A stretch of DNA of 64,000 nt from NCBI RefSeq assembly GCF_018408575.1, contig NZ_AP023418.1:806001-870000 (forward strand). Direction: 5' to 3'. Each line of letters starts with the position of its first letter. The first letter of the stretch is position 1. The notes beneath the pieces are model-generated. The model saw only the letters and a program-made list of their open reading frames with translations. It ran no database searches and was not told the origin of the DNA. Below are positions 24,983-29,835 of the stretch, one piece after another. A program made the position numbers and the translations under genes. The DNA comes from Vescimonas coprocola (GTDB taxonomy: Bacteria; Bacillota; Clostridia; Oscillospirales; Oscillospiraceae).

Positions 24983-25846
24983 CTATATAGAGTGTTCCGG
25001 TAAACTGGTGGTAGGCGGCAATTCAATTGAATCAAGCATTCTGATAATTGCGCCGTTTGCTACATCATGGGAGGAGGGGAGATTTTGCTGCTGCCTTTCA
25101 TAGTCCAGCGGAAGAAACTCCGTCATCGTCCCTCGATATCGCTTGGGCAGGAAGGTATTCTGGCAGCGGGGATTCTCCCGTTCCCTGATGGCCACCGTCT
25201 CATAAAACCGCTTCCATAGGGATCGGAAGCAAAGCTCCTCCTCACCGGGCAGGGCCAACTGCAGGCTGTCTACCCGCATCATTCGGGATCGGCCGCTGCT
25301 GTATAGCAGTAGGTCCTTGTGTGTACTGTCGTAGATAAAAAAGGATTCGTTGGCATAGCGATTGCAGAAGTGGTTTCGCAGCAGGGGGAGGACTCGATTT
25401 TTTGGCTCGATTTCCGCTCCCAGCACGCCACTGTACTCGGAAAAACGGATGAAGCCACGCAGCTTCTCTAACTCGCCGCTCATGTGCCGCAGAGCCTTGG
25501 CCACGGGGTAGTAGGCCGCATCCGACTGGTTTCTCAGGAAATCCGGTCCTTCGTCCATCAGCTTGCGGACAAAGGTGTAAAGGTGCAACTCTTTATCCTC
25601 CATACAGGTGAGAAAGGCACGGTGCAGCAACTCTGCGGCACGCTTGGAGCGCTTGAAGATGCCCCGGTACACCCGGCGGGCGTGCTCCGGCACCGTCAGG
25701 ATGCTGCGGACGGAATACAGGGAAAAACACTCCTCATCGCTGTAAAAGGCGATGGGGAATTCTTTGTGTACATAGCTTTCAAACACGCAGCAAAGGAATC
25801 CGTCGAAGCTGCCGTCGTATTGAAAGACCACATCCTGCCATGCCAT
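24983..25846 (-). CDS. TIGR03915-like DNA metabolism protein, 287 aa
   Basis: The pattern VVFQYDGSFDGFLCCVFESY at the start, the middle RFSEYSGVLGAEIEPKNRVLPLLRNHFCNRY and the C-terminal LPKRYRGTMTEF match the TIGR03915 family ('probable DNA metabolism protein'), related to the SAM-linked uracil-DNA-glycosylase-like fold. It is always paired with the radical SAM protein encoded just upstream. The enzymology is not established. I start it at ATG 25846, just past the overlap with the radical SAM stop (25851), with GGGGTGA before it. It is the last gene of the SOS-type cassette. Confidence 0.8.
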   Translation of the reverse strand: MAWQDVVFQYDGSFDGFLCCVFESYVHKEFPIAFYSDEECFSLYSVRSILTVPEHARRVYRGIFKRSKRAAELLHRAFLTCMEDKELHLYTFVRKLMDEGPDFLRNQSDAAYYPVAKALRHMSGELEKLRGFIRFSEYSGVLGAEIEPKNRVLPLLRNHFCNRYANESFFIYDSTHKDLLLYSSGRSRMMRVDSLQLALPGEEELCFRSLWKRFYETVAIRERENPRCQNTFLPKRYRGTMTEFLPLDYERQQQNLPSSHDVANGAIIRMLDSIELPPTTSLPEHSI

Positions 25847-25850
25847 CGTA

Positions 25851-27119
25851 TCACCCCGCCGAGTCAAACAGCGACAGCTGCCGGCACTCTTCCGGCGGCA
25901 GCTGCCCTCGCTCCATCGCCTCTAATTGCCGCTGAAGGGTCTGGGCGGTAAATTGCAGGCCCTGCCGCATCCGGCCGCCGCAGGTGATAAAGAACTGCGC
26001 CCTCTTCAGCACCACCCCCAGTTTTTTCAGGTCCTCGAACCGCAGCGTACCATGGCGGCGGGCCGAGACGATACGCCGTGCGCTTATCGGACCGATGCCC
26101 GGCACCCGTAGCAGCGTCTCGTATTCGGCGTTCATGATCTCCAGCGGAAACTGTTCCAGATGTCCGATGGCCCAGTGGCACTTGGGGTCCACCAGCGGAT
26201 TGAAGTCCGGGTGCTGCTCGTCCAACAGCTCCTCGGCCCGGAAGCCGTAAAACCGCAGCAGCCAGTCCGCCTGATACAGGCGGTGCTCCCGCAGCAGAGG
26301 GGGCTTCGTATCCTTGGAGGGCAGCAGACTGTTCTCGACTACCGGCACATAGGCAGAATAGAACACTCGTTTGAGACGGTACTTCTCGTACAAAGACTGG
26401 GTCAGGTGCAGGATATGGCGATCATTGTCCGCCGTGGCGCCCACAATGAGTTGAGTGCTCTGTCCGGCCGGGGCAAACACCGGGGCGTGGCGGGACTTCG
26501 CCAGCTCTGCCTTGCTCTCTCTGGCCCGGTCCCGAATCTGTGCCATGGGCCGCAGAATGGCCTGTTTGCTTTTATCCGGAGCCAGAGTTTGTAAGCCCTT
26601 CTGAGAGGGCAGCTCGATGTTAACGCTGAGCCGGTCTGCCAGCAGCCCCAGCCGCTGCACCAGCTCCGGCGATGTGCCGGGGATGGCTTTGGCATGGATA
26701 TACCCGTTGAAGCGATACTCCTCTCGCAGGATCCGCAGGCACTCGATCATCCGTTCGGTGGTATAATCCGGGCTTCGCAGCACGCCGGAGGAGAGGAACA
26801 GCCCCTCGATATAGTTGCGGCGGTAAAAGCCGATGGTCAGCTCCGCCAGCTCCCGTGGTGTGAAGGCCGCCCGGCGGGTATCGTTGCTGCGCCGGTTGAC
26901 GCAGTACTTGCAGTCGAACACGCAGCTGTTGGTCATCAACACCTTCAGCAGGGTGATGCATCGCCCGTCGGCAGAGAAGCTGTGGCAGCAGCCGGCGATA
27001 GAGGAGGTGGTGTTGCCGATCATCCCAGGCCGGGCGCTGCGTTTGACACCGCTGGACGTACAAGCCGCATCGTATTTGGCGGCGTCCGTCAGGATGGCCA
27101 GCTTATCCAGCAGCTCCAT
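25851..27119 (-). CDS. TIGR03916-like radical SAM DNA modification/repair protein, 422 aa
   Basis: The radical SAM cluster is LMTNSCVFDCKYCVNRRS (CX3CX2C, about 72-90). The C-terminus carries helix-hairpin-helix DNA-binding elements, LLRVPGIGPISARRIVSARRHG (about 317-338) then FEDLKKLGVVLKRAQFFITCGG. This is the 'putative DNA modification/repair radical SAM' family. I start it at ATG 27119 (MELLDKL), 4 bp after the stop codon of the 37-aa peptide; the longer frame to 27173 overlaps that peptide. The reaction is unknown; a repair role is inferred from the HhH, the partner and the LexA-like control site. Confidence 0.82.
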   Translation of the reverse strand: MELLDKLAILTDAAKYDAACTSSGVKRSARPGMIGNTTSSIAGCCHSFSADGRCITLLKVLMTNSCVFDCKYCVNRRSNDTRRAAFTPRELAELTIGFYRRNYIEGLFLSSGVLRSPDYTTERMIECLRILREEYRFNGYIHAKAIPGTSPELVQRLGLLADRLSVNIELPSQKGLQTLAPDKSKQAILRPMAQIRDRARESKAELAKSRHAPVFAPAGQSTQLIVGATADNDRHILHLTQSLYEKYRLKRVFYSAYVPVVENSLLPSKDTKPPLLREHRLYQADWLLRFYGFRAEELLDEQHPDFNPLVDPKCHWAIGHLEQFPLEIMNAEYETLLRVPGIGPISARRIVSARRHGTLRFEDLKKLGVVLKRAQFFITCGGRMRQGLQFTAQTLQRQLEAMERGQLPPEECRQLSLFDSAG

Positions 27120-27123
27120 GCCG

Positions 27124-27237
27124 TTACACCGTGCGGCGGCGCTGCTGGGGACGATCCAGCCGGTCGATGACATGAATGGCGCTGCCGGAGAAGAAAGCCA
27201 CGCCCACCACCATCATAATAAATCCAAAGGTCGTCAT
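27124..27237 (-). CDS. 37-aa membrane peptide, first gene of the repair cassette
   Basis: ATG at 27237 has a near-perfect AGGAGGT site 7-8 bp upstream and ends at TAA 27124-27126. The peptide is MTTFGFIMMVVGVAFFSGSA, then IHVIDRLDRPQQRRRTV: one membrane helix and a basic tail. It is the first open frame behind the SOS-like promoter, and its stop codon lies 4 bp before the radical SAM start, so the three are probably co-translated. SOS-induced small membrane proteins such as YneA (Bacillus) and SidA (Caulobacter) block division. Whether this one does is inference. Confidence 0.7.
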   Translation of the reverse strand: MTTFGFIMMVVGVAFFSGSAIHVIDRLDRPQQRRRTV

Positions 27238-27273
27238 AGTACATACCTCCTGTGAAACTTTTGTTCTATCCTC

Positions 27274-27302
27274 ATTATAAGTCGAACATCCGTTTCTGTC
27301 AA
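27274..27302 (-). promoter_or_regulatory. Consensus promoter with LexA-like operator in the spacer
   Basis: On the minus strand TTGACA (27302-27297), 17-bp spacer, TATAAT (27279-27274). The spacer holds CGAACATCCGTTTC (27283-27296 on +), which matches the Bacillus SOS box CGAACRNRYGTTYC at 13 of 14 positions as I recall the consensus. A repressor bound there would block the promoter completely. Confidence 0.75.
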
Positions 27303-27341
27303 TATGAAATCGAACAAAATTTCTATATTTCTGCAGAGAGG

Positions 27342-27370
27342 TTGACCGGCCCCGGATTTTGTATTAAAAT
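27342..27370 (+). promoter_or_regulatory. pcrA promoter
   Basis: TTGACC (27342-27347), 17-bp spacer, TAAAAT (27365-27370), 32 bp before the pcrA ATG. It is divergent from the SOS-like promoter by about 40 bp. Confidence 0.65.
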
Positions 27371-27402: not shown

Positions 27403-29835
27403 ATGAATGAATTACAGCAGCGCTTTATCCGGGCAAGGCGGCAGGCCATCGCCCTGAACTATCAGCATCTCAACGACAAGCAGCGGGAGGCGGTGCTCTC
27501 CACGGAGGGGCCGCTTCTTCTGCTGGCCGGAGCCGGCAGCGGCAAGACCACGGTGCTTATCAACCGGGTGGCCAACCTTCTGCGCTATGGCCGGGGCAGC
27601 GACACGGAGGAGATCCCCATGCCCATCTCCGACGATGAGGTGGAGTTTCTGGAGCAGTATGTCCGGCACCCGGATCCGGAGCAGAAGCCCTTGGCGGATT
27701 ATCTGTGCGCCGTGGAGCCCGCCCGCCCGTGGGAGGTACTGGCCATCACCTTCACCAACAAGGCTGCCAATGAGCTGAAGGATCGTCTGGAGCGGATGCT
27801 GGGGGAGGAGTCCCGTGATGTGTGGGCCGCCACCTTTCACTCCGCCTGCGTGCGGATTCTGCGGAGGGACATCGACAAGCTGGGCTTTGACCGCAGTTTT
27901 ACCATCTACGATACCGATGACACCAAACGGCTCCTGAAGGACATTCTCAAGGAATTGGAGTTGGATGAAAAGACCTTTCCCGTCCGGGAGATCCAGACCA
28001 TCATCTCCCGCTCCAAGGATGATATGATCCTGCCGGAGGAGTTTGCCGCTCAGGCAGAAAAATCTCAGGATTGGCGGCGTAAGCGCATCGGTAAAGTATA
28101 CGCGCTTTACAATCAGAAACTACGGGACGCCAATGCGCTGGACTTCGACGATATCATCCTCCACACGGTGGATCTGCTGCGGACGGACAGGGAGACGCTG
28201 GCCTACTACCAGCGTAAGTTCCGCTACGTCCTCATCGACGAGTATCAGGACACGAACCATTTGCAGTATCTGCTGGCCAGTCTGCTGGCAGGGGGACACC
28301 GCAACATCTGCGTGGTAGGCGACGACGATCAGAGCATCTACCGCTTCCGGGGGGCCAACATCGAGAACATCCTGAATTTTGAAAAGCAGTATACCGGCGC
28401 CCGTACCATCCGTCTGGAGCAGAATTACCGCTCTACACAGAACATTCTGGACGGGGCCAACGCCGTCATCCGCCACAACACCGGCCGCAAGGGCAAGACT
28501 CTGTGGACGGAGAACGGAAAAGGGGAAATCATCACCGTCAAGACCTGCTTCAATGAGTCCGACGAGGCCAACTATGTAGTGGGGCAGATCATGATGAACT
28601 ACCGTCGGGGCGTCAACTGGAAGGAACACGCCGTGCTCTACCGAACCAACGCCCAGTCCAACGCCATGGAGTATGCCTTTAAGCGCAACGGCGTACCCTA
28701 TAAGATCATCGGCGGCATGAAGTTCTTCGACCGGGCCGAGGTCAAGGATATGCTGGCCTATCTGTGCGTCATCAACAACCCCACCGATGATCTGCGGCTG
28801 CGGCGCATCATCAACGTACCCTCCCGCAAGATCGGCACCGCCACGGTGGATAAGGCGCAGGTGATCGCTACGGAGGAGGGGAGGCCCCTCTATGAGATCC
28901 TCTGCCACGCATCCGACTATCCAGAACTGAAAGCAAGCGCTGTAAAGCTTCTTACATTTACAGATATGATGGAGGAAATGCGCCGCCATGTGGCCGATCT
29001 GGGGCTGGTGGAGTTCTACGAATATGTGTGTGACCGCACCGGCTATGTGCGGATGCTGCAGGAAAAGGACGATATGGAGAGCCGGGGCCGGCTGGAGAAC
29101 GTACAGGAGTTGGCCTCCAGCATCATGGGCTTTCTGGAGAACGAGCCGGAGAACCCCACTCTGGCGGGCTTTTTGGACGAGGTGGCTCTATATACGGATC
29201 TGGACAGTCAGGCGGACTCCGACAACTGCGTCACCCTCATGACCATGCACAGCGCCAAGGGGCTGGAGTTTCCATGCGTGTTCGTGGTGGGCATGGAGGA
29301 CGGCCTGTTCCCCGGCAACCGGGCCATGGGGGATGAGGAGGAGATGGAGGAGGAGCGGCGACTGTGCTACGTGGCCATGACCCGTGCCAAGGAGAAGCTG
29401 ACCCTCACCAATACCCGGCAGCGCACCCTGTACGGCCGTACCAGCCCCGCTATGCCCTCCCGCTTTCTCAAGGAGATCCCGGAGGAGAATATGGAGTGGC
29501 TGGGGAAGCCCGAACCCCAGCAGGCGGCGTCCCACTGGGAGGGGGAGTGGCAGCGTCCTACCGCTGCGTCTCAGGTACGTACCCGTCGGGAGGAGCCGGT
29601 CCGATCTACAACGGCTCCGTCCGCTCCGTCGGTGCGGGCTCGCTCCGCAGCACCCTCTGCGCCCCTGATGCAGCTGCGGGCCGGCGACAGCGTTCGCCAC
29701 AATGCCTTCGGAGACGGTATGGTGCTCAGCGTCCGGCCCATGGGCGGCGATGCGCTGGTGGAAGTGGCCTTTGACAAGATCGGCACCAAAAAACTGATGC
29801 TCAAGGCCGCCGGGACCCATCTGACCAAGCTGTGA
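27403..29835 (+). CDS. pcrA: ATP-dependent DNA helicase PcrA/UvrD, 810 aa
   Basis: This is an SF1A 3'-5' helicase for repair and plasmid replication. Motifs: LNDKQREAVLSTEGPLLLLAGAGSGKTTVL (Q motif and Walker A, about 24-52), ITFTNKAANELKDR, YRYVLIDEYQDTNHLQY (Walker B), VVGDDDQSIYRFRGA, and TMHSAKGLEFPCVFVVGMEDGLFP with CYVAMTRAKEKL. The C-terminus has a Tudor-like segment (GDSVRHNAFGDGMVLSV). It is longer than Bacillus PcrA because of about 45 extra residues before ITFTNKAA and a low-complexity Ala/Pro/Ser linker near 700-755. An AAGCAGGGGAT site precedes it. Confidence 0.96.
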   Translation: MNELQQRFIRARRQAIALNYQHLNDKQREAVLSTEGPLLLLAGAGSGKTTVLINRVANLLRYGRGSDTEEIPMPISDDEVEFLEQYVRHPDPEQKPLADYLCAVEPARPWEVLAITFTNKAANELKDRLERMLGEESRDVWAATFHSACVRILRRDIDKLGFDRSFTIYDTDDTKRLLKDILKELELDEKTFPVREIQTIISRSKDDMILPEEFAAQAEKSQDWRRKRIGKVYALYNQKLRDANALDFDDIILHTVDLLRTDRETLAYYQRKFRYVLIDEYQDTNHLQYLLASLLAGGHRNICVVGDDDQSIYRFRGANIENILNFEKQYTGARTIRLEQNYRSTQNILDGANAVIRHNTGRKGKTLWTENGKGEIITVKTCFNESDEANYVVGQIMMNYRRGVNWKEHAVLYRTNAQSNAMEYAFKRNGVPYKIIGGMKFFDRAEVKDMLAYLCVINNPTDDLRLRRIINVPSRKIGTATVDKAQVIATEEGRPLYEILCHASDYPELKASAVKLLTFTDMMEEMRRHVADLGLVEFYEYVCDRTGYVRMLQEKDDMESRGRLENVQELASSIMGFLENEPENPTLAGFLDEVALYTDLDSQADSDNCVTLMTMHSAKGLEFPCVFVVGMEDGLFPGNRAMGDEEEMEEERRLCYVAMTRAKEKLTLTNTRQRTLYGRTSPAMPSRFLKEIPEENMEWLGKPEPQQAASHWEGEWQRPTAASQVRTRREEPVRSTTAPSAPSVRARSAAPSAPLMQLRAGDSVRHNAFGDGMVLSVRPMGGDALVEVAFDKIGTKKLMLKAAGTHLTKL

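Follow-up and report, generated by a model that had tools for sequence, protein, structure and literature searches.

Organization of the locus

The 64,000-nucleotide stretch of the Vescimonas coprocola genome considered here (contig NZ_AP023418.1, positions 806,001 to 870,000, referred to as the window) contains on its minus strand a promoter surrounded by candidate sites for LexA, the repressor of the SOS response to DNA damage. It is followed by a small open reading frame (ORF), a radical SAM gene (TIGR03916) and a TIGR03915/DUF4130 gene, and judging from the sequence these three genes are likely to form a single LexA-repressed operon encoding a small membrane peptide and two enzymes. The features of the locus are, in window coordinates:

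24983..25846, minus strand: TIGR03915/DUF4130 protein (193.4 bits against a cut-off of 112.25), likely start ATG at 25846
25851..27119, minus strand: radical SAM protein TIGR03916 (651.9 bits against a cut-off of 343.5), likely start ATG at 27119
27124..27237, minus strand: small ORF of 37 amino acids, MTTFGFIMMVVGVAFFSGSAIHVIDRLDRPQQRRRTV, with a single hydrophobic helix followed by a tail rich in Arg; it opens the operon
27246..27251, minus strand: Shine-Dalgarno sequence AGGAGG of the small ORF (GGAGG in 26 of 27 loci of the genus)
27255..27266, minus strand: putative LexA box C, GAACAAAAGTTT, around the expected transcription start
27274..27302, minus strand: sigma-A type promoter TTGACA-N17-TATAAT, read from the sequence
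27284..27295, plus strand: putative LexA box B, GAACATCCGTTT, within the promoter spacer
27312..27323, plus strand: LexA-like box A, GAACAAAATTTC, 5' of the -35 element

A preliminary description of the window had placed at this site a consensus promoter with a LexA-like operator inside its spacer, and both are indeed there. Read on the minus strand from 27302 to 27274, the promoter is TTGACA-GAAACGGATGTTCGACT-TATAAT with a spacer of exactly 17 nucleotides, and the 14-nucleotide box CGAACATCCGTTTC occupies positions 27283-27296 of the plus strand. The match of 13 out of 14 positions given for this box stands when CGAACRNRYGTTYB is used (one mismatch) and fails against CGAACRNRYGTTYG (two mismatches), so the figure hinges on the consensus chosen. 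Two flanking boxes had been overlooked (27312-27323 and 27255-27266). The central box B lies 28 bp from box A and 29 bp from box C in the window, and all three fit the set of motifs used to search for LexA sites in C. difficile (GAACN4GTTT, GAACN4GTTC, GAACN5TTT, and GAACN5TTC, as given in excerpts of PMC4234289).

The first gene of the predicted transcript, the 37-residue peptide ORF, had likewise been missed and is absent from the ORF list, where the radical SAM gene is given a start at 27173 that overlaps it. The ATG at 27119 lies 4 nucleotides past the small ORF, and the region around this start is similar among the loci of the genus. The last gene also matches the DUF4130 model of Pfam (score 144.8 against a cut-off of 27), and no glycosylase family was matched in its product in family-model searches. 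We know of no reaction assigned to the TIGR03916/TIGR03915 pair.

Conservation of the operator

The significance of the box comes from its conservation across the genus, since a single box of this kind is at the level of chance. The radical SAM gene was found in 28 of the 32 genomes of the genus set, and 27 loci are comparable, the gene of the remaining genome (G026) being split across two contig ends (L055/L056), although this promoter and box can be seen there too. All 27 loci have TTGACA, a 17-base spacer and a -10 element, the -35 element being identical in every one, and the 150 bp preceding the first gene hold one or more GAACN4GTT[TC] boxes in each locus, with both strands considered (shuffled controls: mean 0.35 loci, maximum 3). 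Three relaxed boxes are found in 24/27 loci (shuffle mean 0.0) and the spacer box itself is recognized in 26/27. Their arrangement is just as regular, with boxes A and B 28 bp apart in 22 loci (27 or 29 bp in 4) and boxes B and C 29 bp apart in 24 (28 or 30 bp in 2), such that spacings of 27-29 bp and 28-30 bp, respectively, hold in 26 of the 27 loci. Away from this locus the genus-wide scan for boxes in promoter spacers was noisy, a reversed control pattern giving matches as well.

The box also extends beyond the genus. For the family, the best 80 of 567 Oscillospiraceae-type loci were taken, including Oscillibacter, Dysosmobacter, Flavonifractor and others, and one with only 36 bp of upstream sequence (L162) was set aside, leaving 79. 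A strict box is located within 300 bp of the TIGR03916 gene in 63 of these (shuffle mean 1.29, maximum 4), compared with 0/79 in the first 300 coding bases. Nine of the box-bearing loci are on contigs already in the genus set, and removing this overlap gives 54/70. In the class, TIGR03916 scores above its cut-off in 152 of the 393 Clostridia genomes searched, from which 70 loci were sampled (the 30 best-scoring and 40 hand-picked further down). The 250 bp preceding the radical SAM gene include a strict box in 27/30 and 29/40 of these, 56/70 altogether, and the shuffle control, run on the 40 loci only, gave a mean of 0.36 and a maximum of 2.

The operator is situated between the operon and a divergent helicase gene, which could in principle be its target. 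The two features on that side are:

27342..27370, plus strand: promoter-like sequence TTGACC-N17-TAAAAT of the pcrA-like gene, separate from the operon promoter
27403..29835, plus strand: divergent PcrA-like helicase (859.3 bits)

The protein is termed PcrA-like because its score is under the cut-off of the pcrA equivalog model (911.2). Box A is only 18 bp from the -35 element of this gene; however, the promoter-like sequence of the gene is clear of the boxes, and a helicase motif occurs on that side (1.5 kb upstream, by pattern) in just 15 of 68 family loci, far fewer than the loci that carry a box. The helicase gene is probably not the target, and we consider this explanation very improbable.

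LexA and the SOS genes of the genus

The preliminary description proposed looking for the same box before lexA and recA, and the two genes gave opposite answers. The lexA model has one match in the window's genome, and its translated product contains VAAG, GESM and VKR, which we take by motif to be the cleavage site and the catalytic Ser and Lys residues; the ORF upstream of lexA is presumably SecG-like. In 29 of 30 loci of the genus, [AC]GAACN4GTTG overlaps the -35 element of the lexA promoter, so that the GAACN4GTT core is shared with the operon. For recA, where a box is usual in SOS regulons though not strictly required to define one, no box was found within 400 bp in any of 29 genomes (29 of 30 loci were usable), a range that leaves a promoter farther upstream in its operon untested.

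That the radical SAM/TIGR03915 cassette is under SOS control, as the preliminary description proposed, is well supported by the conserved box in genus, family and class and by lexA promoters with a box of the same kind, and both LexA binding and induction by damage are predicted. Among the genes tested in the genus, the present operon is the best conserved predicted LexA target beside lexA itself. A single box taken alone is not significant. In the window, the box pattern with up to two mismatches has 12 matches, and 12.8 are expected from shuffles; genome-wide, the reversed control pattern is even more common (61 + 51) than the box pattern (21 + 21). Several observations weigh against the SOS assignment. 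The spacer box of one genus locus (G017) is altered or broken, and strict boxes are lacking in 16/79 family loci and 14/70 class loci, although each of the 16 holds a one-mismatch site (mean of 4.1 loci and maximum of 8 in shuffles). The likeness to the lexA operator is limited to the GAACN4GTT core, because GTTG, and not GTTT/C, closes the lexA half-site, and the lexA box is missing in G024, a genome in which the radical SAM gene is absent too. Boxes are also sparse at the genes usually taken as SOS hallmarks: recA has none nearby, uvrB has one in only 4 of the 28 genomes that could be counted (of 30, two genes being incomplete; the window's genome is among the four) and the Y-family polymerases carry a strict one in 4/30.

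Given the chance-level counts in window and genome, the box itself might be a chance match. Its conservation goes far beyond that of shuffles at all levels compared (genus, family and 40 loci of the class), and we regard coincidence as extremely improbable. Another LexA-type repressor, such as a paralogue or a phage repressor, could also read the boxes. Some genomes have additional, weaker matches to the LexA model, one of which, a second LexA-like protein gene in G009 (contig 11: 135485-136155), has its own spacer box upstream (TTGACAAACGGATGTTCGATG). The window's genome nevertheless has a single lexA-model match, and the lexA promoters have the same core as the operon, which makes a different repressor improbable. 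Because relatives keep the same switch, it is very probable that the operon is indeed linked, through LexA, to the DNA-damage response.

The small first gene encodes a conserved, predicted membrane peptide

The peptide ORF is present in all 27 genus loci, with lengths of 35-43 residues. The proportion of synonymous differences (pS) exceeds that of nonsynonymous differences (pN) in 343 of 351 pairs, and the median ratio of the corresponding rates (dN/dS) is 0.39 for the 301 unsaturated pairs; the peptide is under purifying selection. In the window it has a 19-residue hydrophobic stretch, defined by hydropathy, and a short basic tail. Each genus peptide has one such stretch, with no Arg or Lys before it and 3-8 after it, and for this reason the tail is predicted to lie inside the cell. 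The helix with its basic tail is also seen in Oscillibacter-type sequences. No family in Pfam, NCBIfam or PHROGs was matched at an E-value of 0.001, the best value being 0.023, for a sequence from an SOS locus.

In the family, 53 of the 79 loci have the peptide ORF (an automatic call of 48, from which L170 was removed by eye and to which L167, L172, L173, L180, L181, and L190 were added). A quick tree was made from 80 radical SAM proteins, 54 of them with the peptide (the window counted); the presence of the peptide requires 2 changes on it, compared with 22.2 for shuffled labels, and 28 of the 77 inner branches are weakly supported. Among the 26 loci without the peptide are 17 in which a strict box precedes the radical SAM match by 26-54 bp.

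A model of the peptide detected further copies elsewhere in the same genomes. Four of these (L213, L215, L216 and L231) sit directly after a small gene that is alike in all four by eye, and a scan of the neighboring gene at L216 gave phrog_1956 and the end part of a RecE-like family as matches. The ORFs around the four copies include what we take, by eye, to be RelE-like, tape-measure-like, and recombinase-like proteins. Within stretches of 9-10 kb, three of the four copies have no strict LexA box around them. It would seem from these surroundings that peptides of this kind are carried by phages or other mobile elements too.

The small ORF might be a mere leader that brings ribosomes to the start of the radical SAM gene, with a peptide that itself does little. 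A ribosome site of the radical SAM gene, as called by pattern, is found in 15 of 23 loci without the peptide ORF but in just 4 of the 52 that have it (75 of the 79 loci were covered, the rest having no ATG near the match). This contrast suggests that the radical SAM gene is translationally coupled to the peptide ORF, which is probably the case, and together with the 4-nucleotide gap in the window it fits a leader. The purifying selection on the peptide sequence, the recurrence of helix and tail in Oscillibacter-type sequences, and the homologues in prophage-like loci without an adjacent radical SAM gene all argue against it, and we see a pure leader as a minority possibility. The peptide could alternatively serve as a membrane anchor or partner for the two enzymes. 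DUF4130 accompanies the peptide in 51/51 family loci with enough sequence, as opposed to 17/23 loci without it, and the basic tail is predicted to be on the cytoplasmic side. Both enzymes, however, occur without the peptide in those 17 loci, and neither was recognized by eye beside the prophage-like copies, so an anchor is less probable than a leader.

Proposed mechanism

The anatomy of the promoter suggests how the operon could be controlled. LexA dimers on the three boxes, 28-29 bp apart, would reach from a point upstream of the -35 element as far as the start site, and their occupancy would keep RNA polymerase out. RecA filaments formed on damaged DNA stimulate the self-cleavage of LexA in the established SOS logic, and self-cleavage after damage would then release the operon promoter, with the result that the peptide and both enzymes would be made together. 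The peptide would be translated from its strong ribosome site and the radical SAM protein by coupling to it, and the radical SAM/DUF4130 pair may act on a damaged base, by repair or other processing.

The peptide could be a damage checkpoint in the membrane, perhaps one that restrains division, and this possibility, which is tentative, is preferred by analogy with YneA, SidA and DidA. The more inclusive proposal is that SOS-induced membrane peptides 35-43 residues long, whose tail lies inside the cell and not outside, make up a new family acting as an Oscillospiraceae checkpoint, together with a coupled radical SAM protein and possibly a DHH-like partner, a triple LexA operator, and prophage copies; it is somewhat more doubtful. 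Two points speak against a checkpoint: a role in division is argued by analogy only, and the predicted orientation of the peptide is opposite to that of YneA.

Relationship to known systems

In Bacillus subtilis, yneA is located beside lexA, and we assume that COG4277 corresponds to the TIGR03916 radical SAM family. The comparisons that follow refer to excerpts of the papers cited. YneA of B. subtilis and SidA and DidA of Caulobacter are, like the predicted product of the present ORF, small damage-induced proteins with a transmembrane segment, but most of the YneA chain is outside the cell, while the peptide described here has a short Arg-rich tail predicted to be inside (PMC6051672). It resembles YneA in having putative LexA boxes over its promoter and a single transmembrane segment, predicted by hydropathy; its chain is not mostly outside and its gene is not next to lexA (833 kb and 1885 kb, respectively, on contig 1). 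As it is without the large outside portion of YneA, the peptide would at best act in a similar way to these proteins and is not filed as a YneA-type member.

A LexA-controlled two-gene operon for putative base repair, COG1573-COG4277 (uracil-DNA glycosylase), is reported to be under SOS control in Bacteroidetes, with Verrucomicrobia and Alphaproteobacteria cited likewise (PMC8565304). Because SOS control of a similar cassette has thus been reported in other phyla, the SOS link of the present cassette is an extension of known work. The locus differs from the COG1573-COG4277 operon in that it occurs in Clostridia, has three GAACN4GTTY boxes, encodes a DUF4130 protein with no glycosylase match, and begins with a membrane peptide. 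DUF4130 was termed a predicted mutagenesis-related enzyme in 2013, when its gene neighborhood with SplB-like radical SAM genes tied it to radical SAM proteins and to the SOS network (PMC3765255). That account is based on gene context, whereas a conserved operator is identified here. It is the sole paper found in the literature searched that names DUF4130, TIGR03915 or TIGR03916.

The LexA regulon of C. difficile has boxes of the same class (GAACN4GTTT/C), including one at lexA; it also has them at recA and uvrB, which are mostly or wholly without them in the genus studied here, and a search of that text for the word "radical" gave no match (PMC4234289). A radical SAM protein is listed in a core SOS regulon of Gram-positive bacteria (PMC7739468) and in a table of LexA targets of Streptomyces (PMC9380542). 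No paper joining Oscillibacter, LexA and the SOS response was found in the literature searched. Within it, the peptide family, the operator with three boxes and this genus's thin regulon appear to be new.

Other sites

Other matches were evaluated as operators and rejected. In the window, the match at 507-520 is inside an ABC-F-like ORF, and those at 26360 and 26744 are within the radical SAM gene. Perfect palindromes of the box, which occur three times in the genome, have identical flanks and no proper genes, and presumably lie in ribosomal RNA genes and not in promoters:

G000 contig 1, positions 257929, 1149851, and 2535601: palindromes CGAACGCACGTTCG (L063, L064, and L065)

Two further sites resemble promoters. 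At about position 2681 of L066 (G000 contig 1: 727676) the promoter-like stretch CGAACAAGTGTTCT contains a box, and no protein gene can be clearly made out downstream. At about position 2176 of L067, on the minus strand (G000 contig 1: 2182166), TTGACTCGAACGTTTGTTCTCGTTATAAT has an operator in its spacer, and the sequence downstream shows no clear genes at first and then a recombinase-like ORF; this site is perhaps an SOS-induced mobile element. Near dinB-type genes of the genus (L365-L387), a degenerate GAACAAATGA-like half-site is seen just after the -10 element in about 13 of 23 by eye.

Significance

Oscillospiraceae are common gut bacteria, and the TIGR03916/TIGR03915 pair is widespread. 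The conserved LexA operator tells when the pair is needed and offers a direct assay, while the peptide, a small conserved protein outside the families of the three databases searched, provides a new lead. With recA lacking a nearby box and this operon having three, the genus may depend centrally on the enzyme pair and the peptide when it responds to DNA damage.
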